From Heliocidaris erythrogramma (Eukaryota > Echinodermata > Echinoidea > Camarodonta > Echinometridae), in assembly GCA_025617745.1 (NCBI GenBank), contig CM046870.1, forward strand, positions 4,841,285-4,905,284: a stretch of DNA of 64,000 bases. Direction: 5' to 3'. A model generated the notes under the pieces. That model had not been told where the DNA came from, ran no database searches, and was given only the letters and a program-made list of their open reading frames with translations. A program made the position numbers and the translations under genes. This document shows, piece by piece, positions 1,088 to 54,505 of the stretch. Each line of letters opens with the position of its first letter. Within the stretch, counting starts at the first letter, position 1.

Positions 1088-4000
1088 GTGAGTCAGATTT
1101 TTACGAATTGGAATCAAATCACATTGTGCGAGTTTGTGATGGCAAGAAACATGGATAATTAACTTTTGTCCTCTCATTCTTATACGCCTTTCAAACCAGT
1201 TTCCCCAAGTGAACTTCCCCGGTAAACACCTCCAAATTTTACGAGAAAGAATTCCTGAGGTTATTTGGAAAAGTACAGGTCCACCTGTCACACTGACAAC
1301 ACCTCTCCGGGGAACTTGCCATTGGTAACGAATTCCACGTTCAATCGGCCAGCAGTCAGGTCAGATTCAGGGCGCGCATGTTTGTGTTTTCGTGCAGGGT
1401 TTTAAAATGAATGTCGATGCGACGTCATAGGATCATAGTGTGACCGGCCGGAAGTGATAATTGATCTGACGTATTTCACCGGGGATGTTCTCCACCGACC
1501 TTTCAAACCGACCACTTCCCCGCTGAAACTCTCTTTCCCTGCGTAAGTCTTCACCTCGGTAGGTGGAGAAGTCACCCGGGATAGTTCTTCAGCTTTTTGC
1601 AGGGAACTTTTCCCTTGTTCCTTTCAGACCGGACCTTTCCCCCACGTAACTCTGAACTTACGGGAAGTGCGTGGTTTGAAAGGGGAAAGTTCTTCGTCTC
1701 CTCCTCGTCAATTTCGAATATTAATTTAATTCCCAACTTCCACCCTGGAGACGACACTATACCTTCATGTAATGGAGAAAAAAAAAAGAGCCTTGCAGAA
1801 AAAAAGTTCAGATCAAATGCTGCTGTATTAAAAAGTGGATTAACTTATAATATGATCTTTATTTATCTTCTTCTTTATACCCTGCAGGGGTCTATATCCG
1901 TCCCAGGTACAGTAGGGGCATTGCTTGTAGAGAGACCGGCCGATGTGGAACAAGGCTTTGCTCTAACTGCTCCTCTAGTCTATCACTTCGGTGCTACCTC
2001 ACCTGGAGCTAATATGAAGCTCTATCAGATCCTGACGGCCAAGCTAGCCGAGGTCTTTGCAATCCGCTGCAAATCAAATTCAAGAAGTAAGAAAAACACA
2101 AGTAGCCGTATTCTACTAAATCAGTGAAATGTGATGTGAGGACTTAAACAGAGGGAATACTTTGATCTCGATCTAACTTCCTTTTTTTCAGGTTAAAATT
2201 TTTGTAGACTACGGACCAATTTTATCAAATAAATAAAGAGTATGTACTGCCAAAGGTGAAAAAAATTCTGTAAGCTTTTTCATTCTTTTTATTATGACTG
2301 TATGGAAGAATTTAATCAGCAGTGGTACATGAAAAGGGTTGTTCTTGAAATGCCCTCATATTCTACACAGGTTTAGAAATAGCTGACATTTTTAGACCCA
2401 ATTTTGATGCAACAGGTGTTTGTATTCCCTTGTACCCACACCTGTGTGCAGTAATTTTCAACACAACTTAAGTTATTTTCTGATTCATTGTAACTTAAGT
2501 TAATACAATCAGTGGTAGCAAGCATGGAGATAAAACAGGTTTTTACAATTTATTGTTAGTCAGTGTTTATATTATAGGGCCTATGTTAAATAAGTTGCAT
2601 TTAGAAGAAATAAAACTATTTAAAAAATAAGACAAATGATTATAACTTCTTGATATCCTTTCACCCTCTATTCTTTTGTATTCTAGTTGCTCAGAGTGGG
2701 TGTGTAATCAATACATGCGGCTGGGTCAAAGGTGACGGCTATCAATGTATCAAATATGCAGCTCAGGCCTTTGAAGGTAAAGATCAAAGCATCGTAAATG
2801 TACTGTGTCCCTTTTGCTGGTGAAAGATAAAGAAATTGTATGAATAAAATTCCTCTATCCAATATACATGTATGGAGGAAATACAGTTTAATCACCTCTG
2901 AATATAGGAACAACATTGTGACATTTCATGGAATAATCAACCCTTAGGTTTCAAATAGAATCTTTATAGGTGGGTTGCCAATATCATTTAGCTATGGGGT
3001 GCCAAGTGTAACATTTGTGATCTGTTACAAAATCAAATGATTTTGTAATGAAACATATTGAAATATGTTGAACAATGTTTTTGGGGCTAAGAAGATCTAT
3101 TTTTGTGTCCAGAAACAGAAACAGTCACCTCTATCGTGAAGTTCATATCTGCGAAAGATATTTTGCACCCAATTTTCAGTGGAACAAAGCATTTTGAGTA
3201 AAAATTTCACTCTTGATGGTTAGGAGTGGGAATTTTGGGTATTTTTATTAGGTCGGGTACACGAAAAATCAAACAATATTTGACCCCTAAAAGGTATATA
3301 AAGTATACAAAAATTTTACGATTCATGGTTTCCTGCAGCCGTGAAAAAAACATGACATGAATATAAACACATGGGATTGATTACAGTGATTTTTTTTTTT
3401 TTAAGAGTAAGAAATGTCATTAAAATGTCAATTAAATTAGTTCAAATACTTCATTAGACAAGCACTACAAGTGGTAAACAGCAGTACAAAAATAATTAAT
3501 TCAAATCTGTACAAGAATGATAGAATCTAATTTCAGGTTTTGGACTTTCAAAGTTCGTTTTACCTCTTTTGGTTTCCGAGAAAAGTATTAAACTAACTAT
3601 ATGGTATTTGAACATAGAGGTCCAAAAGTCCAAAATGCTTGAAAATAAAGATCATGAAGGAAGAATTTAGTAACTGTTTAATGATTAATTGCTGTTGATG
3701 ACTGATATCACTTGTAACAATTATGAATTTAATGGGTTTTAAGCCAACTTTTAAAACCCTTTCCTCATGATCTGTCCCACATGTTAAAAACTGTTTATTT
3801 TCGGGAAATGGGTATCTAATTTTTTGACCCGGGACAAGAAGCTTTCGGGCGGACGGGGGTACCCAGATATTAGTCACAGCCCTATTGATGGTTAATTTAT
3901 GACAATTTGTCCAAACATTTGGTGGCACAGGAGGGGTTGACTTAACATGTAAATGTGTCTTCTCTTTTACTCCAAAGTTGATGTGATAATTGTGCTAGAC

Positions 4001-7000
4001 CAGGAGAGGTTATACAATGAATTGGTCCGAGACATGCCTTCCTTCGTCAAAATTGTACTACAACCCAAGTCTGGTGGGGTAAGTAATAAATACAATGATA
4101 ATATAATTATGATAATAATAATAATAATGATATTCTGTTCTTGTATCGCAAATATCACATTGTGATATAATGCCTCTATGTGCTTCCTGACTATGTCATT
4201 ATTTTTCTGTTTTACTAAAATATCTTGAATCTCAGGAATTATGTTAGTCTGGTCAATCAACTGGTCAGAGGTCAAATACAAACAAATTAATAGAAATTTG
4301 CTGTAGGTACATGTAGGAAAAAACTAACTGAAAATGCACAACTCGTGTTAGACCATGTGTTATGCTCGTGGGTTTGGACGACTAGCTAGACACTATGAAC
4401 ACGGTGACAAAGAGAGCGGACAATTTATGCAGCTCCTCATTGTACCCTCCACAATAGCTCTTATTAGTAAACAAAAGGACATCCCTTCACTGCTATTATG
4501 TGACACCTGTTCTACATATTTTTACAGGATAGCAATGAATGGATGTTCTTTTGTTAACCAGTGCAATTGTGAAGGGTACAATGAGGAGCAGCATAAATTG
4601 TCCGCTTCTTTGTTCGTCATGTTCATAGTGTAGATCACCTTTAACCTTTTTCATTGCTCAGCTAATAATTTCTATAAAATATGTTTGGGAGACATCATTA
4701 ATCTATATAGTCTCGAACATAGAGTGTACGTTTTAAAGGATAGCTTTGAATAAAGACATGCACTCACCTCAGTAAAACGCAAGAACGGATAGAAACGTGA
4801 AATGCAAGAAATAAATGGAAACTAAAGAGGAAGAGAGAATGCTAAAAACATATTAAGCTCTAATTGGCTGCTGCACATATGGGATGCTGGTCATAGTGTA
4901 ATCTGTCTTCTTAATTCTGTAAGAAGTAGTTTTTCTAACATTCCGGGGACTCCAGATTACCTTTAACCCTTTCAAGACAATTGACCACATTGTGTGGTTT
5001 GGCACAATAACTTTTGATTCAGAGCTCTAAAAAATATACCAGATGCATGAGTGGAAAGAGCAAAAATTTCTGCATATACTATGTCCATTCTTGTTGCAAG
5101 ACCATATTGCGTTTGATGCCAGGAATTTTTTAAAATGAGAATAAGCTTTAAAAATCCTTAAACTGGCAACACATTGAGAGGTTCAAAATCAATGCTTTTT
5201 ATCAGAATTGGCAATTATCTTCAACTTGTTGACAAAATTTGTAGCCCTGTATATTGTTTCAAAGACATTTCACCTTAATTAGAACCTTGTAGCAATAAAA
5301 GAAAAATATAAGTGTTGCCAATTTGAAGAACGAAATGTGATCAATTAACCCTTAAAAATATTTCTTGTCCTGAAAGGGTTAATGATCTCAATACCAACTC
5401 TAAAAATTCTTTTATTTCTGGTTCAACCTACAGGTCGTAGAAAGATCTCAGAGCTTCAGACGGTTCACGAGAGATGAGAAAGTTCGAGAGTACTTCTATG
5501 GCTACAACTGCTGTTACTACCCACATTCCTTTGAAGTCAAGTTTGTAGATGTAGAGATCTACAAGGTTGGAGGTAAGGTCTATAGCCTCATTCCCTAAAA
5601 ATTTTTTGTTTTTAAAGTAACCTCGTTCATTTAGAAGGTTAAAAAAAAGTGGCTTATGGGTTGTGTAGGTCGTCAGGATTGAGTTCCTGTCGAAGTTGGG
5701 TTTGGGTAGTTCCACCAGCTCCACCACATCGATTTCGCCATCACCACTACCCAAACCCAACTTCGACAGGAACTCAATCCCGACGACCTACACAACCCAG
5801 TGTTCCCCCACGTCCGCAATCCACGCACATATACCCTGCCGCCGCCAGCGCTCACTCACTCCTGATGACGGGCAGTCAACCTGCCTGGAACGTCGAGAAG
5901 CCTCATCCCTCCTGATCTTCATCGTTGAGACTACTAACCGGATCTATTCTCCACCGCCGGGACTCATCACCTCATCTACTCCTCTTCTTCCAGTCACCTT
6001 TTCTCATCTGGTTTACAGTCCTTCTAAGGACTTCACCCTCTCTCACAAAACATAACTTCTTATCCCCCCTTCCACTTTTCTCTCATCTTGTTACTTTCTT
6101 GACTATCAATTTCTCATATTCTCCCCCTTGTCTCATCATTTTCTACCCTCATTTCAATATCCCAACAGTCCATATCAGGACTAACACATGGTGAACAGTA
6201 AACCTCCTCCACGTTATCTATACTACTTTACAGATACGCAACATTCGCAGTGAAAATTTTTGGGATGTCTCCAATACCAAAAGACTCAAGCTAATACCTT
6301 TTCATTTACAATTTGGTAGGAAGCAAGGCGTTTAGAAGTCATGATTGAAATAGATGGATTTGAATGATAATGATGCCTTGAAAGGGAGACAAAGGATATT
6401 GGAAAATAGGTAATGATTGTGTTGTTTTTTCCAACCATGTAGAGGGTTCCCACAAGCAGCCATGCTGGAGGAAATAACAATAAAAACCTGTTCATCCGAC
6501 TATGAAAAGCCATTGTTGTCATGGCCTAGTGCACAGGTTTTTATTGTTACATGTATGTCCTCCAGTATGGCTGCATGAAGGAACCCTCTATTGTCACACC
6601 AACAACTATGGACCTTTCTTTGATTTTAATACACTCATAACAAATATTACCTTTAATTTCTGACCGACTTGTTTTGTTTCTTGTAGCTCCTCCAGTACCT
6701 AATTCCTGTCTACCTCTTTTTGTTTCTTATAGCTCCTCCAGTACCTAATTCCTGTCTACCTCTTTTTGTTTCTTGTAGCTCCTCCAGTACCTAATTGCTG
6801 TCTACCTCTTTTTGTTTCTTGTAGCTCCTCCAGTACCTAATTCCTGTCTACCTCTTTTTGTTTCTTATACATGTAGCTCCTCCAGTACCTAATTCCTGTC
6901 TACCTCTTGGAATGACCCCGGAAGACAACCAAACCAAACTAGTCCCAGTCAATCCAGGTATACATTCCTACCTGTTAAAGACCAAGTCCACCCTATCAAA

Positions 7001-10000
7001 AAATTGATTTGAATAAATAGAGAAAAATCCAACAAGCATAACACTGAAAATTTCATCAAAATAGGATGTAAAATAAGAAAGTTATGGTATTTTAAAGTTT
7101 CGCTTAATTTCGCAAAACAGTTATATGCACATCCTGCTCAGTATGGAAATGAGGGAACCAGTGACGTCACCCACTCACTATTTCTTTTGTATTTTATTAT
7201 GTGAAATATAGAATATTTTAATTTCTGCAGATTTCACAATTAGGAAGCTCTCATTGAATTGTGTATAGGTTGCAACAATGGCAATTACACATGTTCAGCG
7301 AGGAATAAAACCTTGTTTCACATTATAACAAGGAAAAATTAAAATATTTTGTATTTCATGTAATAAAATACAAAAGAAATAGTGAGTGGGTGACGTCACT
7401 GGTTCCCCATTTGCATACTGAGCAGGATGTGCATACAACTGTTTTGCGAAATTAAGCGAAACTTTAAAATATAACTTTCTTATTTTACATCCTATTTTGA
7501 TGAAATTTTCAGTGTTATGCTTGTTGGATTTTTCTCTATTTATTCAAATCAACTTTTTGTTAGGGTGGACTTGGCCTTTAATAGCTGATTGATCAGGGCC
7601 CCATTTCATAAAACTTGTTACAATAATTGTTCTTATAAGCTACTGAAATCGGAGCATTTGATTGGATTAGAGCAAACTTGTCATAGATTTGTCGCAGTTG
7701 TTATTGACAACAAGTTTTATGAAATGGGGCCCAGTTCTTACATGCCGTATATTCTTATTTGAGAGCCTCGCACTTTGATAATGTTTGCTGTTGACAACTC
7801 CAAAATTTTATAATGATTGTCCAACATAGCAACTTACGCTGTCAGTATTGTGACCAATTCAAATGGCCCATGTAAAATCAGAAACATTTGTGAGTTTTTG
7901 AATGACGGCCGTTTTGGGGCAAGAAACTTTTTACAAATTGCAAAATGCCAGTGTTTTGATCCATTCACTTTGCAGCATGAAAACTTGCAGATCTGAACTA
8001 CTTGGGAAATTTATGAAAGTTTTGGCATGCGAATTGTTTACGTTTTACAGTAATGAAATTAAGCCTGAGTCATATCGAATATTTCATAATCCGGGATTCG
8101 ACGGCTTTGATTCGATCGAATACCGGTGCATCGATAAATGATGGGCGGTGAAAACAGAGTTGCACGCAGTGCATGCACCATGCACTGGTGACCGGTCCGC
8201 TGGCATCGCGGGCATATGTATGGGCTCTCGCTGCTCGACATTAACGATAGCCCGCTAGCCAATGGCTAGTAAAAATCACAGCGGACGAGCCAAAATCTTA
8301 AGTTTCTAGTCCGTATGGCTAGCCAAAATATCCCTCTAGTGTCGCACGAAGCGATGCTCGTTGTCGACACACCCGACAATGATTCAAATTCAAAGAATTA
8401 ATAATCTTACTTTGTCTTTGGAGAGCTGAATGGAACACGTTTGTTCGATGCAAAAAAAAAAAAATACGAAATAAACTTTTCGTCGCTCATGACTGTTGAC
8501 TCGACTTCATATATTCAGCTTCAGATATAGATCATTGAGAAGTAATTGCCAATTTGATGAGAGTGTGATATTAGTTATTGCGAATTAAGTAGGAACACTC
8601 GTACTCATGCCCGTATTTATCATGTTCAATTATACAATTGTCAAATTGACAATGCAGAGAGAGTGCAAGAATATTATCGTAAACTTCAGTTCGTAACGAC
8701 AAAACGATTTTTCCATAGAGAAAGCACAGGTAAAGCGCGACGTCCTCCGCGAGCGAATTAGCGAAAGTTAGCCAACAGTTTGAACTTTGAAGTCGCCTTC
8801 ACGTTCTCTGCTAGTATATATGCTGTACGTTACAGAGTTTCTTTTTTTATTTGCTTTTTTCATGGTGGCTACGGTAGTCAAAAATCTGGCGGACTACAAA
8901 TCGATGCACCGGATTTGCCAAAACGAATTCGGGATTCGATGTCTTCGATCGAACACCGGCTAACCAATCGATTCGACTCAGGCTTAAATGAAATCGTTCA
9001 ATATTTTCAAACTTAGATGAGAAGAGATATACATGTACAGCCCTGGAAAAAATTATTAGACCAAGATTCTGTAATAAAACTATAATATGCAAACAAAGTT
9101 ATAAAAATGATTTGTCTTTGTATTTCATTGAATGAATACCAAATTCCAGCAATTATTTATACCTTGCTTTTATGATAGTGTTATTTTCATGGTAAGAAGG
9201 AAATAAAATATCAGTAACTATTCTTGGTCTAATAATTTTTTCCATGGCTGTATATACATGTGCATGTACTATGGGAAGTATTTACACCTACAGGAAATAT
9301 CAATCCAAAGTGTTAGAAACATCATGAAATCAAGTGAAATACAAGCAAACAATAAGTTTCAGTTCAGTTCCATGTCATTAGTTTGAAGAAAGCCTGTGTG
9401 TTATTCTTTCAAACAGGTCCAGAAATTGTGCACCATCTCCTTAGTGTAAGTCTATCTGAGACTAAAGAGGATGGTATCATAGAGACCAATGTAGCTGGTT
9501 TCATTGTTATGTAAGTATCACTAATTGTTTCCTAGATTTCTGTAAACCCAGAAATTTTTGCAACATGAAACTTTTGTGAATTGTTATATTCAGCATGATA
9601 GGAGTCATCAATAACAAGTTACAATAACTGTTATAAGCTACTGAAATACTTGCATCTGATTGGCTGAGACCAAATTTGTCATAGATTTGTGGAGGTTGTT
9701 ATTGATAAGTTTGATAAAACAGGGCCCATGTCTCCTTTATTTATGAATTGTATGCTTTGATTCTGTTACCTGCTAACGATGTGTATTATTGGGAGAGGCA
9801 TAAACCTACTGTGTACGGTAAATCTCTCTACTTTAAGCCCACCGCACACTATACGAACGGTCTACGTTCTCAAATTTTGAAAGAAAATGTTATAGCATTT
9901 ATAGATATAAACACTTAAACACATTAGATATGTTTGATTGAGGTTCAGAATAGTTACATAGGTAGTAAAATCAAAATTACAGGCTATTACGAGCATTCTA

Positions 10001-11578
10001 GTCGGAGGAAAGGCCAAATCGGCTCCGAATCGTAGTGACGTCAGAGCAGTCATGCGATTGTCTACGATTTGAAACTGATTTGGCCCTTATCCCGGATATA
10101 AGGCTGACATCTCACCAAATTCCTAATTTATGTTGAGTATTTATATTATTCAGGGATGTAAGACTTCCGGATTTTTCCGGAATTCCGGATTTTTTTTAAT
10201 TTAAGAAACATTTGCGGGTTTTTTCTGTGACTTGTTATGTGTTGAAGGCATTATCGTACTTTCGTGTGCATTAACCTAGTGGCAGAAAAAAAATCTCGCA
10301 AATGAAATATAGTCTTGTACGGGCCGTTTCATACGAAGTATGTTAATATAGCGTGAAGTGGTTCTCGTATGCACAGCACGAATTTTGTATAAAAATCCTG
10401 GTAACGAGTATGTGTGGACAAGTGCTATGGACTGTAAAACCATGCGCTTTACTAAAATTCGCGTAACAGCCACGTAATGATTTTGTATTTTGAACGTGCG
10501 GCGACAGGAAAAGTGGACTGATGTATGAGACTATACGTTCTGGATCATGCATTGTCAGGACGACCGCATTGCGAAGCTAGCTAGCGCTAGCACACGTGCA
10601 CAGCGATATTGTGCTGTATATTGTGTACTGTCGACGTCGCGTATCGCATGCATATCACGCAGCTGCACAGATAGTTTACGACTTTGTGATAGCATTTCGA
10701 CTTCGTTTCCTGATTTTCTTTTGCCTCTTATTGGAATAAAAAATCAAAATGGAAGTGGACAGGACTGCAAATATAGCGAAAATCGACATAGGAATTAAGA
10801 ATACCGGTAAGTGGAATTGGAAATGGACAGGAGAAGGATGCGAACGGAGTATTCTTGAGCGATTACGTTCGGACACCTAGGCCTACATGACCTACACTTG
10901 ACTGAATCACTGCGCTGCTGGGATCGTCAAATATTTTCCGGATTTTTTTTTGCTACCCACTTACATCCCTGATTATTGTTCAGAACCTGAATCAGCTATC
11001 TTTCACTGGTTAAACTGCCAATATTTAATGCTATTGCGATTATTTCCAAAAATCGGATCGTAGTCGATCGTATAGTGTGCGGTGGACTTTAAGGAGAAGG
11101 TTGAGTTCTGTGGAAAGGTGAAAAATAATTTTTGAGCTTTCTAATTCCTTTTATGTCAGTTTAGAAGAACATCATAGTAAAAAGTCCCCTGAAAATGAAT
11201 GCTCTTCAATGCCCCAATATTCAAAATGCCATCGAAATTGGGTCAATTTCTTATCTTTTTCATGACTTCAAAACCTCACAGTATACACCAATTCTTATGT
11301 AGACATGATCAACCTTTCCCAATTGTTTTGAAACCGTTCCTATCACAAAGTAATTGCATGACCAGAACTCGAAATTTAGTTTTAACAATCTTCTATATTC
11401 ACAGTTAATGTATGTGAATATTTACCTCATAATTTTTCTACAATAATTTGTCTTTATCCATGGCAGCACCAATGTGGACATGGAGAGGAAAACCTTCACC
11501 GTGCTTTCACCCGCTCCAAGACCGTTACCACGGCGATGCCTCCTCCTTAGTGATGTACGCTTCATGGACATCAAATGA
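974..11578 (+). CDS. CLP1: CLP1: RNA 5'-kinase and pre-mRNA cleavage/polyadenylation factor (5'-partial, 8 exons)
   Basis: CLP1 is a nuclear P-loop polynucleotide kinase. By family knowledge it is a subunit of cleavage factor II with PCF11, and phosphorylates RNA 5' ends in the tRNA splicing endonuclease complex. Eight exons join in phase: 974-1087, 1888-2086, 2687-2776, 3978-4078, 5434-5572, 6877-6957, 9417-9510 and 11467-11578. They give 309 codons plus TGA, matching roughly residue 117 to the C-terminus of the human protein. Visible landmarks are the Walker A loop GPGDVGKST, the Walker B-like [26 protein letters not shown], the lid-like [11 protein letters not shown] and the C-terminal [10 protein letters not shown] and DVRFMDIK. 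The arginine matching human R140, a residue mutated in a human neurodegenerative disorder, is kept in YAVRVGRR. All introns are GT-AG. The N-terminal beta-domain is outside the window. Identity is near certain; orthology rather than paralogy is inferred. Confidence 0.97.
1186..1684. repeat. Putative degenerate inverted-repeat element in CLP1 intron
   Basis: GCCTTTCAAACCA near 1186 is mirrored by GTGGTTTGAAAGGG ending at 1684. Similar CCTTTCAAACC words recur near 1498. The stretch is more GC-rich than its surroundings. This looks like an old MITE-like insertion; no target duplication was identified. Confidence 0.4.
1888..2086 (+). CDS. CLP1: CLP1 exon b
   Basis: Acceptor CTGCAG at 1882-1887, donor GTAAGA at 2087. 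It encodes [27 protein letters not shown] and the helix ending in CKSNSR, and leaves one nucleotide for the next exon. This is the nucleotide-binding core following Walker B. Confidence 0.96.
2687..2776 (+). CDS. CLP1: CLP1 exon c
   Basis: Acceptor TTCTAG ends at 2686, donor GTAAAG starts at 2777. It encodes [19 protein letters not shown] and the following helix. Phase 1 on both sides, consistent with the neighbouring exons. Confidence 0.95.
2777..3977. other. CLP1 intron, nothing recognised
   Basis: 1.2 kb of AT-rich intron. Only a T-run near 3390-3401 stands out. No coding similarity or clear terminal inverted repeats were seen. The 111-codon minus-strand frame at 3593-3928 shows no recognisable domain. 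Confidence 0.6.
3978..4078 (+). CDS. CLP1: CLP1 exon d
   Basis: Acceptor AAAG ends at 3977, donor GTAAGT starts at 4079. It encodes [16 protein letters not shown] and [14 protein letters not shown] and ends in phase 0. The acceptor has only a modest pyrimidine tract, but the protein match fixes it. Confidence 0.95.
4967..5378. mobile_element. TTAA-flanked MITE, family A copy 1 (piggyBac-like)
   Basis: Terminal inverted repeats CCCTTTCAAGACAA and TTGTCCTGAAAGGG are flanked by TTAA at 4963-4966 and 5379-5382. It is 412 bp with no transposase frame. Related copies lie at 21147-21558 and 39803-40211. TTAA targets with CCC termini are typical of piggyBac-type elements. Confidence 0.8.
5434..5572 (+). 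CDS. CLP1: CLP1 exon e (lid region)
   Basis: Acceptor CTACAG ends at 5433, donor GTAAGG starts at 5573. It encodes [34 protein letters not shown] and VEIYKVG, ending in phase 1. The basic [11 protein letters not shown] stretch corresponds to the lid of the kinase domain. Confidence 0.96.
5657..5799. repeat. Near-perfect 54-bp inverted repeat (hairpin)
   Basis: Arm 5657-5710 and arm 5746-5799 are exact reverse complements except for one base, with a 35-nt spacer. It sits 85 nt after the exon e donor, so it would be transcribed in CLP1 pre-mRNA as a stable stem-loop. Confidence 0.9.
5800..6190 (+). mobile_element. Penelope-like element relic with hammerhead-like motif
   Basis: CTGATGA at 5862-5868 is followed by a 7-bp stem (CGGGCAG pairing with CTGCCTG) and then GGAAC. 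This resembles a type of hammerhead ribozyme found in Penelope-like retroelements, with the conserved GAAA changed to GGAA. The downstream CT-rich 300 bp has the character of such element ends. No reverse transcriptase is present. Confidence 0.5.
6440..6590. repeat. Imperfect palindromic element (MITE-like)
   Basis: AGAGGGTTCC at 6441 pairs with GGAACCCTCT ending near 6589. Pairing continues through CAGCCAT-CTGGAGGA and AACAATAAAAACCTGT. The arms are about 50 bp with a central spacer of about 45 bp, in CLP1 intron 5. Confidence 0.7.
6667..6876 (+). repeat. 46-bp tandem array duplicating a 3' splice site and exon start
   Basis: Five successive copies of pyrimidine tract, TAG and the first 30 nt of CLP1 exon f. 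Exon-like starts are at 6687, 6733, 6779, 6825 and 6877; the last spacing is 52 bp because of an ACATGT-like insertion. Only the fifth copy continues into real exon sequence. Confidence 0.95.
6877..6957 (+). CDS. CLP1: CLP1 exon f
   Basis: Encodes [19 protein letters not shown] and TKLVPVNP, in phase 1 on both sides. The donor is GTATAC at 6958. The acceptor at 6871-6876 is the last of five tandem copies. Using any of the four upstream acceptors adds sequence that reaches TAA within about 60 nt, so this one must be used for full-length protein. Confidence 0.93.
6979..7577. mobile_element. Long-arm foldback MITE, TTAA-flanked (family C)
   Basis: Inverted arms of about 240 bp start at AGACCAAGTCCACC and end at GGTGGACTTGGCCT. 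TTAA flanks it at 6975-6978 and 7578-7581. The arms differ by few bases and include matching GTGACGTCAC palindromes, so the copy is fairly young. It carries no coding capacity. Confidence 0.85.
7596..7732. mobile_element. 137-bp palindromic MITE (GGGCCCC-TTTCATAAAAC type)
   Basis: GGGCCCCATTTCATAAAACT is mirrored by AGTTTTATGAAATGGGGCCC, with a core containing TTATAAGCTACTGAAAT. It shares this core with elements at 9605, 26932, 51550 and 52409. Confidence 0.8.
7880..8030. repeat. Degenerate fragment of the 55276-55490 repeat family
   Basis: Words such as GGGGCAAGAAACTTTTTAC and GCATGAAAACTTGC resemble the inside of the element at 55276-55490. No terminal repeats are preserved, so this is an old fragment. 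Confidence 0.35.
8060..8986. mobile_element. Non-autonomous hAT-like transposon with perfect 8-bp TSD
   Basis: Termini TAAGCCTGAGTC and GACTCAGGCTTA are exact inverted repeats. Direct repeats AATGAAAT at 8052-8059 and 8987-8994 are identical. Subterminal CGATCGAA/ACCGG words are also mirrored. It is 927 bp with no transposase-like frame. The 8-bp duplication places it near the hAT group, although the tips are not the usual CAG. Confidence 0.85.
9038..9250. mobile_element. Tc1/mariner-type MITE, copy 1
   Basis: CAGCCCTGGAAAAAATTATT at the left is mirrored by AATTTTTTCCATGGCTG at the right, between TA dinucleotides at 9036-9037 and 9251-9252. It is 213 bp. A second copy lies at 26379-26596. 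Confidence 0.85.
9417..9510 (+). CDS. CLP1: CLP1 exon g
   Basis: Acceptor AAACAG ends at 9416, donor GTAAGT starts at 9511. It encodes [18 protein letters not shown] and VAGFIV and ends two bases into the next codon (AT, completed by C in exon h). Confidence 0.94.
9605..9726. mobile_element. Degenerate copy of the GCTACTGAAAT-core MITE
   Basis: Contains TTATAAGCTACTGAAAT, the ATTGGCTGAGA motif and a right end AAAACAGGGCCC. The left terminus has decayed to CATCAATAACAAGTTA. Same core as 7596-7732 and 51550-51690. Confidence 0.7.
9836..11093. mobile_element. Outer DNA transposon, interrupted by a second element
   Basis: GCCCACCGCACACTATACGA near 9837 is mirrored by TCGTATAGTGTGCGGTGGAC near 11090, each bordered by TTTAA. 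Its interior is split by the element at 10151-10971. No transposase frame was seen. Confidence 0.75.
10151..10971. mobile_element. hAT-type non-autonomous transposon nested in the outer element
   Basis: The ends CAGGGATGTAAG and CTTACATCCCTG are perfect inverted repeats, followed inward by mirrored TTCCGGATTTTT words. ATTATT flanks both sides, so the target duplication is at least 6 bp. CAGGG termini fit hAT. It is 821 bp with only short frames. Confidence 0.8.
11095..11394. mobile_element. TTAA-type MITE family E, copy 1
   Basis: GGAGAAGGTTGAGTTCTG at the left and CCAGAACTCGAAATTTAG at the right match the ends of copies at 25712, 36544 and 40787. It abuts the outer transposon and shares its TTTAA. 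Confidence 0.7.
11467..11578 (+). CDS. CLP1: CLP1 terminal exon h
   Basis: The acceptor GGCAG ends at 11466. It encodes [20 protein letters not shown] then [16 protein letters not shown] and stops at TGA 11576-11578. This is the conserved C-terminal end of CLP1, so the reading frame finishes at the family's usual place. Confidence 0.96.
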
Positions 11579-13890
11579 TCCAGAAAAATTCAGTTGCCAT
11601 GGATTGTGCAAAATGGACTATTTTTATAATAGATTTTTATGTCATTGTGCACTTTGTTGTGTCCAAATAAGTTTTAGAGTCCCTTGCCTTATTGACAACT
11701 AGTTTTGATAGACAGTTTGATACCGGTTAATTTATTTGGTACTTTCTTATGTTTATCCGTTAAAGATGGTTTTATTTGAAGAGAGACATACTGAAGAAGC
11801 CGTTTGTCTTACACTCACCAGGGTGATTTTTATATCAAATATCATGCATATCTGATGTGAAGGAATGGAAGTATAATTGGGTTGTGTCTTCCGCAGTGTG
11901 AGGCAACTTGGACTCGTAATCTGATGATTTACTACATGTACTTGTACTTGCTGTTTAACGGTTCTCACTTTCCCCAGGAGTCAAAGCAAACCTTTGGTAA
12001 ACTTTTGAGAGAAATGAAGAGCAATTCTATGGTGAGGTACGTAGCTTTGCAAAATGTAGTGGCACCTGATACTGTGGCTTTTCAGCAAAAGACCACATAT
12101 GGCCAATTAACAATCATTCTGCTAAGTCAGGGACACGCATGTGCTGGATATTGTATGTCAGATGCTGGTGCAGCAGGCCTGTCCCAGTAAGAAAGTTCCC
12201 AGATAGGGGTAAAACAAAATTACCCACCTGCATTCCTTTGTTTTTTTGTTTTTTTAAATCCACTTTCATATGCATCTACTTTTCAGTAAACACCGTTACC
12301 CAGTTATGTCAGCTGTGTGAAAAGAATCATAATTGCGTGTAGATAATTTTACATAGGATAACATAAGTGTCTTGAATTGTTATTGAGAAATTGTGGAAAA
12401 TTGTTTTGTAGTACTCTACTTCACAAGTTTTTTTCTTTCTCATCTTTGCATTGGTCTAGTAGCAAGGAGTCTTGGTACTCTTTTAGATTAGGACAAATGT
12501 TAGCTGAAAGTATGGAGTAATATCCTAATTATTCAGCCATTTTCCCCATCTGCATTTTCCCGATCTGTCTAGTAAGATTCATGTCTTTAAAGATGGTGTG
12601 TATCTTTTTTGTGCAGGCTTGAAATGTATATATACAACTTGTCTTAATAGAACATGATATACAAAAATATACGAAAATATACAGTCCAGTCATTTAATGC
12701 AGAAGTTTTTTTACGTTGGCTGTGCTTCTTTGATTGGGCAACTACTACATTGTATTTTGACTAGAGAATCAAATTGACACAAAATTGATTATGAAAAACA
12801 AGCATCATTATAACATCCACTACCAAATTTTATGTACTGAATCCTGGTGGATTTTAATATTAAGATAATTCATGCCAGTACGGTGCCTACTTTTACATTT
12901 TGAATATTTTTTTTTGTAAAGTTCTTTTGTTAAGGCTGGTGTTAACCTACTTTAATTGATTTAAAAAATAGATTTTTATTTTCTTTAATTCATTATGTTT
13001 TAGTTTCCTATATCTATCTCCTTGTTTTTCACACATTTCTACTGTTTTAAAACTTGATTATTGATGTAGACATTCTCTGAAGACAACCATTTTTTTTTTC
13101 TTTTTTTTTTCTTTTCTCATCAAGTTATAGCTAGATTTATTGTGTATGTAATGAGATCTTTGAAACTTGTTAACTTTATTTGATAACAAATCTGCTGGAC
13201 TTTGAAATTCTTTTAATCAAGAATAACAGGGTATATCTGTTTTTTATATACATGTACTGTACATGCTTGGTCCAGCGGGATGCATTGTCTTCTTTAGCTA
13301 CATTTGTACCTATATGTACATATACATGGATATTGGCAATGGCATCTACTGTACGAGTGATGAAAGTACAAAGTATTACATGTACATGTCCCCCCCCCCC
13401 CCCCCTCCTTCTTCCCCCCCCCTCCTTCTTCCCCCATGAGTGGGTGTACTGAGGAAATTTTGCTGCTATCCAGAGATCAACGTACCCATATACAAATTTC
13501 CCTGTCAAAATACAATTATGTATATTTACAGATGACCGTAAAGTATGTTTACATACACAATATCCTTCTGTAAACATTGACAAACCCGGGAGAAGCGATT
13601 GCTTTTCTTTAGCATGGTCTGTAATTGGTTTGTTAAAGCCAAACTCAGGGTTCGAATATGATTTAGTGTTACTATTTGAGTACTTGATGGTCTGATTGAA
13701 TACCGGTAGAGAGGAAGAAGGGACCAACTCCATTAAAACACTTAAAGAATTATTGAGAAAAAAATGTTATTTTGATAAGTTTAAGAAATAGAATGTTTTC
13801 ATCCTTGCAAGAAACCTTAATTAAAAACATCAGCATATATTATTCCATATACATGTAGATCTACATGAAGGTGAAATACTCAATCTTATC
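11579..13890. other. 3' flank of CLP1, no further gene
   Basis: Includes the CLP1 3' UTR, whose end I could not fix because no unambiguous AATAAA follows the stop closely. The rest is T-rich unique sequence with poly-T runs near 13090 and a C-rich tract at 13390-13433. The minus-strand frame at 13176-13733 overlaps the homopolymer tract and has no domain. Confidence 0.5.
13390..13433. repeat. C/CTT-rich low-complexity tract
   Basis: Runs of C broken by TTCTT. Simple sequence. Confidence 0.9.
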
Positions 13891-33574: not shown

Positions 33575-36500
33575 AAATGCTGCGGCAAAAGCAGATTTGC
33601 GCAATATTAAAAGGATCTATGCCCTACCTATATTCACTTTACATGTACAAGATTGAGAAATGCGAAGGGCATTTCGCTCCTGACATTTTATTTTCCAATG
33701 GTACATTTTGGTGTAGGTTCGAGGCGGTTTCCCACATCGTGAGGTTTAAGAGAAGGTTACATACATCAAGACATCTCTACTTACCAGGATTATAGCATTC
33801 CTCTTGTGCCTATCATAAAGGAAAAAAGAAAGAATAATAAATAAACCAATTATACAGCTATTAAAGGGATATCCAATCTTTGCACTGCCTATAAATGATA
33901 TAATTTAAACTTGAAATTTCAGGAAAGCAAGGGATGTATTAAACATCACATGCACTTTTTTTATTCATATGGACGCATGGCGGTGAAGCAGTCAAGTGGT
34001 TTAAGCAGTTGACTGGGGATGAAAAAGTTTAGGTTCAAGCCCCTGCATGGCACTAATGCCCTTTAGCAAGACATTGATCTACATTTGCCACTCTCCACCC
34101 AGGTGTAGTAAATGGGTACTTGCTTGAGCATTTTGCATGGTGAATATAGGCACTTTACAGCTGCAGGAAGGCAATATTAAATATTAAAATTATATATTTC
34201 AATAGTGCATAACTGAACTACATAATGTCTTGCTTCTGAAAAAGTTTAGAATATTACAAGAGTTATAGCTAATTCATGAATCCATCAATAACAAATTTGA
34301 CCCCTTTTGGAATTTTGCTTCTTCTTTTTCTTTCTAACTTCCTTGACAATTTACCACATGGATGAGTAGAGGAGAGACCCGTTGAGCCCTGATGCCATCC
34401 CTTTGCTTCACGTGCATACATGTATTAGGAGGGGACACTTCTATATTGCAATATTCATATCCAGAGAACAAAATAATGCAATAAATTTTCACTTGGCACA
34501 AAGTCATACACATCTCTTCTTGAAACAGCAATAATGCACCAAGGACCAAAAGATTGAAATTTACTTCCTACTGTAATAAGTGAGTTCGAAACTAATGATT
34601 CATTCAAATGACCCTAATTTGTACGCGCACGGGCATTTGTTTTGGTGGACACGCTACTTGTTTAACATGTAAAATCAAACTGGTGCGCGCATCGTGTTGC
34701 GTACAAAATGACAGCGTATAAAGGTCACTTGTACTCGGTACAAATGACCTTTATCTGCACATGCGCAAATTGTAATTATGAACTGGCTTATTGAAAAATC
34801 ACTGTCACTGAATGTATCTAAAAACTAAGGAACATGTACATTAGAAGAGCACATTCTTGCAAAGTACCGACCAAATTTAAAATCTCTTATCATTCTTTGA
34901 CTTGCATAATTAATTAGGTAAAATGAAATCAAACCAAATTGAACCAATCGGCTCACCTGTTCTGAGCACTCGGCTTCCATCCAGTCCTGCCTGTGTCTAT
35001 CTACACCGCTAGAGCAACGTTTGATCTTATCACACCAGCCGCAGTCAAAGCGGATCTCTTCCCTCACAGATAGGCACCCAGAGCAGTTGGTATACAAGTT
35101 GCAAGCTGCAGGGAAAAAAAGAGAAAGAGGGTAGATTTCATGAAAGATTGATATCTGGGCAGGTCCCATACGTTACCAAGAATTATGGACTTATGAAACA
35201 TAAATTCACATTTAAAATATAATTATACTCGTTATTTGGTCTGATCCAAGCTGTAGCAGGGTTTTCAAATTAATACAACCATCAGATATCATGCTAAAAT
35301 GTCAGATGTGGTCGCTAACGTATGGGACAAAATAGCTGGGACATGCCCATATATGGACTTGGAAGACGAGAAACATTAACTCTTTCAGTGCCGATGGCAC
35401 GTATATGTGACAGATAGACTTGTCATTTTCATTTACCAATTGCTCGACCACAAGAAAGGTATATAGTCATCAATGTATATCACAAATTTGAGCGTAAATC
35501 AAGCATTCTAAATATATAATTATAATTTTATGCTAACATAGAAAATTCAGAGAAAATTGCAAATTTTTAAAAAGATATTACCTTATTTCAACAGTAAACA
35601 ATAGTAAACAAATGAGAAACCAAAATATAATAGACAAAAAAGAAACTTGAATGTAATTTTCAATCATTCTTATGCATAAAGTTGGGTAAAGTAATAATGT
35701 TTGGTATCATAAGAAATGATAACAAATTTCCTACAAGTCTTCTACACAATATTTTGTGAAATAAGAGATGGTTAATGAACTGCAGGCATTTGAAAAGTAA
35801 GCATTGATCACATTCTGGTAAAATTTTGAAGAGAGCTAAACCCCTTGGCACAGTAAGAGTTAATGATATTTGGAAAACCACTGTTGCTGTGAAGAAAGGA
35901 GAAGGAGAGGAGAGAGAAAGAGAAATATTCAAAAGAAAGGAGTGTGTTTATACATAAAACAGGATAGATAAGAGGGTGGGAGTAATGGAGAGAGAGAGAG
36001 GGGAGAGGGAGAAGGAGAAGGAGGAGGAGGAGGAAAATGAGTTCAAAGAAAGAAAGAAAAGGGGGTTGTGATAAAGGAAAAGACTTCATGATTTTAAATT
36101 TTCAAATAAGATCTACATGTACATGTTCATAGTGTGCATATAACTGCCCCGTTGCATAAAACCTACCACTAACAGTAACTTTGCCATCAGTGGTAACTCC
36201 CATGGAAACTTTGATTTTGATTGGCTGTTGAGTGATGTTACCATGGTAGTTACCATTGATAGCAGAGTTACCATTAACGGTAAGTTTTATGCAACGGGGC
36301 CTCATCAAGTGGGTTGACATTTGCCAATCTTTCTCCATTTCACTCCAATATTCAATTACAAAAGCAAACAATATCAGGAGCTGACACAGGCTTGCACCAT
36401 TGCACAATGCATTCTAAAAATAGATATGACATACTCAGGATTATCAAACAAAATTTGTCATAACAATTCAATTTTTTTTCATTCACTTGATTCATCTAAT

Positions 36501-39500
36501 GCACAATATAGCAGGTCTGAATGTGCTGTAATGTATCAAAACCTTTAAAGAAAGAGTTGAGTTCTGGTCATGAGATTGAATTGCAAAAGAAACTGTCTCA
36601 AAGCAGTTGGGAAAGGTTGATTATATACATGTAGCACATAAGAATTGGTGGATGCTGTACGGTTTTGGAATCACCCAAATGATAAGAAATTGACTCTGTC
36701 CTGCCGAGAGTCACATGCACTGCACACAGAAATGCATGTATGGGACTACACACAAATGTTCGGCCCAAATATTTCAGCTGTCTCTTGTTATATTTTGAAC
36801 GTGAGGGCATTTGAGGAGCAACCCTTGTCAGGGGACATATCTACTATGATAATCTTCCAAACTAATATAATAAGAATGAGAAAGCTCACAAATTATCTTT
36901 TACCATTTTCCAGAACTCAAACCTTCCCTTTAAAGATTGAAAAGAAACTTACTTTTGAGTGGAGTGAGTACAAAAGCTGCATCGCTAATCACAAAGGTCT
37001 TGTTGAGCTGAATGTTGTGGTAGTGGTAAATGGTTCGCCTGACCAAGTTAGAGCCTGAACAAAAAATGTGATGACGTGATAATAACAAACATTCTATTTC
37101 TTATATCGCATATAGTCTGTTGAGAGCCACAAGGGCGTTAACTGTGTGTTAAAGTATAAGAGTCAACGCCCTTCTGGCTCCAAACAGACGATATCATATT
37201 ATAATATAACGTCCATATGCGCTTCCAATGAGCTTTGCATGGAAATTAGTAAACTTCAGCTCCAGTAACCATTATCAGCACACTGTTCAAAGAATGATCC
37301 TAATGGGGACCCACTTACATGTGCTACACCTGGGTCAATACTGGCAAATTATGTAGATTAATTTACTGCTATAAATCATATATACATACCTATTCTGCTA
37401 GTCTCCTGACTACGCTACCCAATCACTTACCAAAGGACTTCAGTGCATCGTTTCATCAAAACGTCATAAGTACAAGTTCGCCAACATCCCATCGAAACGC
37501 ATGTTAATTTTAATACACGCTTTTCAAACTTTCAATGGGATGTCGGAGAACTTGTATAGGACCGTTTGATGGAACGCTGCCAAGTTGCTTACCGAGTGTT
37601 GAACCCTTTGCTTCCCCTTTCCATTGTTTAAACCTGTTGACTACAACACCTCTCCTATCTGTAACAATGCATCTAGCCATATGATGATTTTAATAATAAT
37701 TAAAATTTTGCTCCAGATATATCTCATACTTATGAAATTTGAAAGGATGCAAATGCAATGAAACCTGTATAGAAAGACCACCTGTCTATGAAAAAATGTA
37801 AACTGACTTCTCGAGACGATAAAATGTTTCCATGCTGAGGATCTTACCTGGGTAAAGGGGCTTATCTATGTAGTAGCCATCGGACAAACCAACAGTCACT
37901 TTGTGGCCATTACCTCCACCTATGTTGTTTACGTCCTCAGGAATCTGTAAGAACGAGAGAGAGAGGGGAACTTGAAAACATATGCATCGTTTCATCAAAC
38001 CGTCACAAGTACAAGTTCGCCGACATCCCATTAATATATATATATTTTTTCACCACACTTTACTAATATATGCCATATATTTTGCACTTGGTGTCTGACA
38101 ACTTTACTCCCTCTTTATTTTCTGCCCTACCACTCCACTGCACTGGACTTGTACAGTACTTATTCCTTTCTCTTGTCTTTGCATTGTTCCTTATCCTGTT
38201 TGATGTTGCCTCCCCACTTATCCTTTGCTTTCACAGGTAACCCACCCTTGAGCTTGGGGCTCATCACTCTCCTTGGATCTCCACGCCTTTGTATTTGTTT
38301 TAATCCCCCTCCACACCCACTTGACTCATGGTTTTTGACTCCCCACACTCACCTTTTGTACCCATTGTTTTGTGGCCACAGCTCCTCCCTCACAGTTCCT
38401 GTTACGTGAACTCTGTTTTGTGTCTGTAGTCTTTATATATGCTTGTCTTGCTTTTTATGTTTGCCTTTTTGCCTCTGACGAAGATTCTGCTAGGATCGAA
38501 AGCTCAGGCCCCATTTGACTCCATTTGACATCCCATTAAAAACGCATGTTAATTTAAATACATGTACACGCATTTCAATAGGATGTCGGTGAACTTGTTC
38601 TTGTTACATGTATGACGGTTTGATGACACGCTGCCCTGTTGCCCTGGATATCTTCTTTTAATTCATTAATTGTTGAATTACATGTACTCACTTATAGGTT
38701 GTTGTTTTTTTGTGTGTGTGGTTATTTGGTTTTTTTTTGCTTTGGGTTGTTCTGTTTTGCTCCCCTCCCCCTTTTTTTAGGGGGGGATGGAGGGGAAAAT
38801 TTAGGTGTTTCAATTAGCTTGTCATTACAATGGTATAATACATGCACATATTACAAGGACAGTATGATTGTTTAACAATTTTTAGTAGTTGGGTAGTTGT
38901 CTAGTTGTCTAGTTGAGTCATGCATGAACACAAGCATGTAAAAAAAGCTTTTTGGACTGTTTTAGGCAAAAAGATCATTGTTCTGTACTTAAAGGGAAAT
39001 CCAACCTTAAGCGCAAGTTGTTCCGACAGAAAGAGAAAACTCAGAGAAGCAGTTTGGTGAAAGTTTGAATGAAATTGGACAAGCAATGGGAAAATTATGA
39101 ATTTTTGAAAGTTGTAATCACTATAAATATTCAAATTGGCTGAATTGATAATGTCACTGTGATCAGGTACACGTTTGCTCCAACACACAAAATGTCATTT
39201 TTTTTTTTTTTTAAGTATTGCGCACTCAATGCGCAGTAGGATCATTTTTCTTTTATGAGGACCTAAATCAATATGCTACAATGTATCTACAACATATTTT
39301 GAGTACTGCCCAGAGGTAAAAGGCATTTCAGAGAAAACAGCAAATTCATGATATTTTAGTGCAAGACAAACGGAAGAATTGACTGCCAGTATGTTACAAT
39401 CGACTCTCCAGTTTTCAAACATCCATTTTTTCAAACTTTCACCATCCCATTTTTCTTATATTTCTGCTTGTACACAAATCATCTTATACTCCCAAGGTCG

Positions 39501-53828: not shown

Positions 53829-54505
53829 CGAGAGCTCTGGTAAACTGAAAAAAAGGGCTCTGGTAAATTGAAAAGAGCTCTGGTAAACTGACAAAGAGCT
53901 CTGGTACAGGTAAATGGAAAAAGAGCTCTGGTAAACTGACAAAGAGATCTGGTAAACTGACAAAGAGATCTGGTAAACTGAAAAAGAGCTCTGGTAAACT
54001 GACAAAGAGATCTGGTAAACTGAAAAAGAGCTCTGGTAAACAGAAAAAGAGCTCTGGTAAACTGACAAAGAGCTCTGGTATGTAAATGGAAAAAGAGCTC
54101 TGATAAACTGACAAAGAGATCTGGTAAACTGACAAAGAGATCTGGTAAACTGAAAAAGAGCTCTGGTAAACTGAAAAAGAGCTCTGGTAAAGTGACAAAT
54201 AGATCTGGTAAAATGAAAAAGAGCTCTAGTAAACTGAAAAAGAGCTCTGGTAAATGGAAAAAGAGCTCTGGTAAACTGACAAAGAGATCTGGTAAACTGA
54301 CAAAGAGATCTGGTAAACTGAAAAAGAGCTCTGGTAAATGGAAAAAGAGCTCTGGTAAACTGACAAAGAGCTCTGGTAAAGTGACAAAGAGATCTGGTAA
54401 ACTGAAAAAGAGATCTGGTAAACTGAAAAAGAGCTCTAGTAAACTGAAAAAGAGCACTGGTAAACTGACAAAGAGATCTGGTAAACTGACAAAGAGCTCT
54501 GGTAC
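53829..54505. repeat. 21-bp minisatellite, about 32 units
   Basis: Unit GAGMTCTGGTAAACTGAMAAA with two main variants (AGCTCT and AGATCT). Longer TAAATGGAAAAAGAGC variants recur at 53911, 54083, 54251 and 54335, showing a higher-order period near 168 bp. The unit is seven codons, so both strands stay open (SGKLKK on +, FSLPEL on -). Confidence 0.95.

Follow-up and report, generated by a model that had tools for sequence, protein, structure and literature searches.

Which of several near-identical 3′ splice sites in front of a single CLP1 exon is used, and whether the array carrying them is harmless, damaging or regulatory, is the question raised by this locus in Heliocidaris erythrogramma. The stretch of DNA analyzed, henceforth referred to as the window, is 64,000 nucleotides long.

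The CLP1 reading frame was reconstructed by fixing the acceptors and trying 27 combinations of nearby GT donors in each of three frames. Only one of the 27 combinations gave an open eight-exon reading, with plus-strand exons at 974-1087, 1888-2086, 2687-2776, 3978-4078, 5434-5572, 6877-6957, 9417-9510 and 11467-11579, the last comprising 11467-11576 plus the stop codon. The resulting 309 residues align over their full length to residues 137-445 of human Clp1 (E 2.4e-154) and match the Pfam families CLP1_P (3.7e-71) and Clp1 (3.7e-34). The exons for the amino terminus fall outside the window, on its upstream side, where pieces matching human Clp1 97-136 (E 2.1e-14) and 60-91 (E 1.8e-8) were located by eye. 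The exon preceding the array (5434..5572, plus strand) ends at the donor GAG/GTAAGG. The exon following it (6877..6957, plus strand) is 81 nt or 27 codons long, so that its omission would be in frame, and its donor, CAG/GTATAC, agrees with the consensus in 6 of 9 positions. Comparison of the protein with the genome (1,064,227,859 bases in 26 contigs) revealed no further copy of CLP1: nine candidates yielded eight matches, each an exon of the present locus. The contig that carries CLP1 also matches the family of bindin (PF02084, E 2.1e-68), a sperm protein of sea urchins, for which 14 control genomes gave no hit; this fits a sea urchin host and disfavors amphioxus. The possibility of a broken or duplicate CLP1 is unsupported, as the gene reads intact and all genome matches fall in its own locus. 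A large palindromic repeat with arms 94-96% complementary begins 15 nt past the end of the CLP1 exon (6972..7584, plus strand). Elsewhere in the window, a probable exon on the minus strand at 34825-35172 encodes a PSI (plexin repeat) domain (E 6.2e-06), with other exon-like frames seen by eye nearby on the same strand.

The array itself is a minisatellite on the plus strand at 6672-6908, reported by Tandem Repeats Finder with a period of 46, 5.0 copies and 94% matches and also delineated by repeat families; it extends from the last part of the CLP1 intron (5573-6876) into the beginning of exon 6877-6957. Each 46-bp unit contains a pyrimidine tract, a TAG and then the initial 30-32 nt of the exon. 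The five TAGs end at 6686, 6732, 6778, 6824 and 6876, which confirms to the base the fivefold 46-bp unit and the TAG ends given in the initial annotation. The spacing from TAG to TAG is 46, 46, 46 and 52 nt, the final interval being longer because unit 5 has six extra nucleotides upstream of its AG. The sequence ahead of the exon copy is TTCTTGTAG in units 1, 3 and 4, TTCTTATAG in unit 2 and TTCTTATACATGTAG in unit 5. A splice-signal test for a boundary-spanning unit found the TAG in all five units, with 32 nt of exon in common. Over these initial 32 nt, units 1-4 show one mismatch to the exon in 4 x 32 positions, and a single C to G change is present in the exon copy that begins at 6779; copies this similar are either young or homogenized by exchange. 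That only the fifth unit leads into the full exon, as first proposed, is borne out. The count of five acceptors holds for the TAGs and is otherwise a minimum, as each of the five units has a second AG (CCAG) 9 nt into the exon copy, in the same frame as the unit's TAG.

Considered as a repeat, the array far exceeds what chance would produce. When used as a query against its own genome it returned one locus, in one assembly representing one haplotype. Arrays of similar form, defined as having a period of 20-200, at least three copies and at least 85% match, occupy 877 bp or 0.46% of 190 kb drawn from 19 other places in the genome, a rough figure based on four arrays. At that coverage, and with assumed numbers of genes and introns, hundreds of the genome's acceptors would be expected to lie inside such arrays if there were no selection. 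The overlap of an array with a splice site is thus less remarkable than the array itself. The window also contains a 21-bp tandem repeat at 53831-54504 (31.6 copies) that is open in several frames, among them one of 286 residues on the minus strand.

The five TAGs differ in the transcripts they would yield. The acceptor at 6876 keeps the CLP1 frame and is the only one of the five to do so. Translation from the acceptors at 6686, 6732, 6778 and 6824 reaches a TAA in the following unit, as had been suggested for these sites. A premature stop located more than about 50 nt ahead of an exon junction usually triggers nonsense-mediated decay. The distances from the TAA to the 6957/9417 junction are 209, 163, 117 and 65 nt for the four sites in that order, and those to the last junction are 303, 257, 211 and 159 nt, placing all four upstream TAGs beyond this limit. 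As their stops precede the next junction by 65-209 nt, all four upstream products are expected to undergo nonsense-mediated decay. Splicing to the second AGs at 6695, 6741, 6787 and 6833 would run into the TAA codons already reached from the upstream TAGs. The one in unit 5 (6884..6885, plus strand), 9 nt past 6876, would keep the frame with the loss of three residues, all of which are present in human Clp1, and it scores higher than the productive TAG (5.31 versus 4.63).

Acceptor strength was scored with a simple matrix built on human frequencies and not trained on this species. The TAG of unit 1 (6684..6686, plus strand) scored 9.25; the A of the branch-point-like CTGAC that precedes it (6663) is 22 nt upstream of the AG's own A. 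The branch-point consensus is CTRAY, which is matched by the CTAAT present in every exonic copy, so that each unit supplies a candidate branch point for the next. On the plus strand, the TAGs of unit 2 (6730..6732; score 11.05), unit 3 (6776..6778; 11.61) and unit 4 (6822..6824; 11.61) each have a CTAAT 29 nt before them, in units 1, 2 and 3, respectively. The productive TAG of unit 5 (6874..6876, plus strand) scored 4.63, the lowest of the five, and the CTAAT of unit 4 is 35 nt before it. Judged by tract, TAG and branch-point-like motif, acceptors 2-5 appear complete. Pyrimidines at positions -20 to -4 number 13, 15, 15, 15 and 12 of 17 in units 1 to 5. By the same matrix, the other seven CLP1 acceptors scored 1.69-12.02, six of the seven above 4.63. 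Of 473 further AGs within CLP1 introns, 11% scored at or above the productive site and about 1% at or above the upstream ones. Nothing speaks more strongly against the array being harmless than the weak productive score set beside the strong upstream scores.

Two ways in which the array might conceal or exploit its splice sites were considered. Masking of the upstream sites by RNA structure was not relied upon, as it may cover site 1 and not sites 2-4. The main feature of the predicted fold of 6430-6960 is a MITE hairpin 5′ of the array (z -5.33), and the mean unpaired probability over the 20 nt before the AG is 0.32 in unit 1, 0.77, 0.75 and 0.77 in units 2-4 and 0.66 in unit 5. Small exons within the array were not favored, yet by a crude count the GT at 6873, created by the six extra nucleotides of unit 5, agrees with the donor consensus in 6 of 9 positions, as many as the real exon donor; the remaining GTs of the array match at 2-5 of 9.

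The six extra nucleotides constitute an exact insertion at a TA. Compared with unit 2, unit 5 has TACATGTA where the former has TA (6868..6875, plus strand), and the insertion sits between the pyrimidine tract and the productive AG. Like Tc1/mariner footprints, it is a short insertion at TA that can be read as the terminal bases of an element plus a duplicated TA. The footprint left by Tc1 excision is taken here to have the form TA-CA-TG-TA, which follows if two end bases are retained on each side after excision. The six nucleotides look like such a Tc1-type footprint and would most simply be the scar of a departed element. According to PMC7827188, footprints correspond to the overhangs that excision leaves behind, which for Sleeping Beauty and mariner are 3 nt long. 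Unlike the 3-nt overhangs described there for these two systems, two bases per end fit the present insertion. Among open-licence papers containing TACATGTA, as judged by title and the start of the abstract, none concerned transposon footprints.

A second TACATGTA lies in the same intron as the array, at 6548 in the 3′ arm of a TA-flanked hairpin MITE (6440..6590, plus strand). A genome search with this MITE scored 40 places among 514 candidates. The six bases inserted at 6548 were absent from all 29 of the other copies fetched, which carry TA at that place in 28 cases and CA in one, flanked by GTTATGTCC or GTTATATCC in 25. The MITE hairpin and the array units have the 10-mer TCCTCCAGTA in common, and docking of the hairpin's CTGGAGGA to the units' TCCTCCAG was considered. 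At the docking place the 29 other MITE copies have CCTCCAGC (26 copies), CCTCCAAC (two) or ACTCCAGC (one); as TCCTCCAG is thus largely MITE family sequence, the likeness between hairpin and units was taken as chance.

The octamer TACATGTA is abundant well beyond this intron. It occurs 68 times in the window against 3.7 expected, an 18-fold excess (for example at 6548, 6868, 25298 and 41547), and 76 times against 6.95 expected, an 11-fold excess, in 190 kb from 19 other places, where it ranks first by z-score among palindromic octamers. Extrapolation gives a genome total of roughly 0.4 million. For comparison with potential empty sites, 219 TACATGTA sites in 351 kb, with up to 128 bp each, were aligned to all remaining sequence, and 27 had a paralogue across the site. 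In 10 of these 27 the paralogue was exactly 6 bp shorter, always with TA in the shorter copy. The remaining testable sites comprised eight with identical copies only and eight with other gaps or changes, which weigh against a footprint origin, together with the site at 38605 with a longer gap; 38605 was scored as exact by the script and excluded by eye, and another version of the script scored 38559 instead. Without the two sites that had raised the idea (6548 and 6868), 8 of 25 have an exact 6-bp-shorter paralogue. Eleven control octamers gave none in 48 (0/26 and 0/22), which corresponds to Fisher p values of 1.0e-5 for 10/27 and 8.0e-5 for 8/25. A plain microsatellite origin of TACATGTA is possible for chains such as TACATGTACATGTA, but not for isolated 6-bp insertions.

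Three of the four TACA-N-TGTA forms are enriched (16 versus 4.2, 8 versus 2.2 and 19 versus 4.4 expected), and the fourth, TACACTGTA, is not (2 versus 2.3 expected). In the 351 kb, TAGGCCTA (24 versus 1.9 expected) and TACCGGTA (11 versus 1.7) are both enriched and are possibly the footprints of elements with other ends. An empty allele was found for none of six testable TAGGCCTA sites, and TACCGGTA had no testable sites, so no footprint claim is made for either.

Elements that could have left such scars are present. Tc1-like transposases are plentiful in this genome, with PF01498 scored in 150 cases among 1,494 candidates. One of two elements fetched has the ends TA-CACTACTC...GAGTAGTG-TA, the ends of the other being indistinct, and small TA-CAGTGG...CCACTG-TA repeats also occur. 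Source elements with TA flanks, CA...TG ends and a transposase therefore exist in the genome, whereas the former occupant of 6868 is putative. Among the matches listed, at least ten open frames of 364 residues share an identical Tc1-type domain score of 72.2 bits (for example at C5:42366672), which suggests the recent spread of one Tc1-like family. Within the window, a 961-residue open frame on the minus strand at 14128-17013 matches Pfam RVT_1 (E 1.1e-33) and is probably a non-LTR retrotransposon, a class assigned by eye.

Multiplication of a splice site by a minisatellite has precedent. A 1995 paper in Nucleic Acids Research reportedly describes a minisatellite with multiple splice donor sites in the human interferon-induced 6-16 gene (IFI6/G1P3). 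This minisatellite likewise multiplies a splice site, although donors are repeated there and acceptors in CLP1. In the 1986 work of Reed and Maniatis on duplicated splice sites, exon sequence as well as proximity is said to decide which site is used.

The closest parallel is provided by the mirages of amphioxus, minisatellites that lie across an intron-exon boundary and in which, according to PMC3087553 and PMC3902484, regular splicing is undisturbed. Genes with mirages named in PMC3087553 are Adh3 and the globins BflGb6 and BflGb9, to which PMC3902484 adds PGBD5 and troponin C. Like the mirages as presented in these texts, the CLP1 array consists of minisatellite-like tandem copies of an intron-exon boundary with splice signals in the units. 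BflGb6 duplicates the 3′ end of an intron together with the 5′ part of exon 2 (PMC3087553), an arrangement similar to that in CLP1, where an intron 3′ end is likewise repeated along with the beginning of the following exon. Unit lengths differ, being 46 bp in CLP1 compared with 150-160 bp in BflGb6 and 10-72 bp in Adh3 as quoted in PMC3087553, which also raises the possibility that the repeated sites could act as cryptic splice sites. The host and gene differ as well, a sea urchin CLP1 here and cephalochordate genes for the earlier mirages, and the 6-bp TACATGTA insertion in the productive unit alone is a feature of the CLP1 array, unlike the amphioxus mirages. Searches of open-licence papers yielded no recognized sea urchin example of a boundary-spanning array. 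The CLP1 array is by structure a mirage, of a kind already described, in a host group that is new as far as the literature was searched.

Taken together, the probable account of the locus is a young, tolerated mirage that arose by slippage or unequal exchange and whose productive unit carries a transposon scar. Slippage or unequal exchange would have multiplied a 46-bp segment across the CLP1 intron-exon boundary, and the near-identity of the units argues for youth. The spliceosome would mostly join 5434-5572 to 6877, since only the last acceptor precedes a complete exon followed by a donor: an upstream acceptor would open a 30-nt exon followed by more pyrimidine tract, while the last would open the 81-nt exon with its donor. 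Transcripts from leaky upstream splicing would be cleared by nonsense-mediated decay, and with such products cleared the array could be tolerated and its copy number could drift. A TA-targeted transposon may once have entered unit 5 and then departed, and the 6 bp now found between tract and AG would be its footprint. The array is most likely a nearly neutral, young product of slippage. Against tolerance stand the scores, by human frequencies, of 4.63 for the productive TAG versus 9.25-11.61 for those upstream, with 5.31 for the AG at 6885. If strength or a first-AG rule decided, the upstream sites would win and CLP1 would be harmed, and exon definition may help less than assumed, given an exon donor that fits at only 6 of 9 positions and is equaled by one GT in the array.

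Slippage, noise and a splicing decoy had been left side by side in the initial annotation; of these, slippage has the strongest support, and the decoy is mechanically possible with no sign of selection. A selected decoy, in which a fixed fraction of CLP1 transcripts is sent to decay through the four upstream acceptors and the output is tuned by copy number or splicing-factor level, is considered unlikely. It would account for upstream sites that appear complete and outscore the productive one, the weakest of the five, and for upstream products that are all predicted decay targets. However, the units are nearly identical, so that age is not evident, and the undisturbed splicing reported for mirages in PMC3087553 and PMC3902484 argues against it. 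The weakness of the productive site also has a chance explanation in the footprint. The RNA-processing role of CLP1, which had been called notable, does not count as evidence, as one minisatellite in one gene does not amount to enrichment.

The same scores, with upstream values above the productive one, would suit a harmful or hypomorphic allele in which heavy upstream use leaves little CLP1 from the sequenced haplotype, the allele surviving in a heterozygote, and a young array could still be a rare variant. The remainder of CLP1 is undamaged, however, and this explanation is regarded as improbable.

An assembly artefact, in which read or polishing errors would have distorted the copy number, is highly improbable. 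Short tandem arrays are error-prone, and one mirage was aberrantly assembled in the amphioxus draft according to PMC3087553, but the CLP1 units differ at definite places (GTAG/ATAG, the C to G change and the 6-bp insert), unlike a copied read error, and the locus is single and clean in an assembly whose contigs span tens of megabases. An early stage of intron sliding or gain, in which one of the upstream units turns into a small exon or the exon edge shifts, was proposed for mirages in PMC3087553 and would fit the frame-preserving AG at 6885 with its three fewer residues and the 6/9 donor match of the GT at 6873, the same as that of the real donor, but it too is very hard to credit when the other array GTs match at 2-5 of 9 and the unit length of 46 is not divisible by 3, leaving the units mutually out of frame.

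A stronger combined proposal, that the scar-weakened last acceptor makes the array a CLP1 dosage device and that the roughly 0.4 million TACATGTA sites are a fossil record of excision, is held to be very doubtful. If it were true, the level of CLP1 would be set, through decay, by repeat copy number together with the level of splicing factors, and some of the footprints in that record would fall in splice sites. If the footprint reading itself is correct, sites such as 6548 and 6868, which have TACATGTA where close relatives have TA, would make excisions countable throughout the genome. With the array read as a tolerated mirage, boundary-spanning minisatellites would extend from amphioxus to a sea urchin, in a conserved gene for which no second copy was found in the genome. 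The locus would also make it possible to examine, in a natural setting, how the spliceosome selects one of a series of nearly identical acceptors that look complete, of which only the last opens a full exon.
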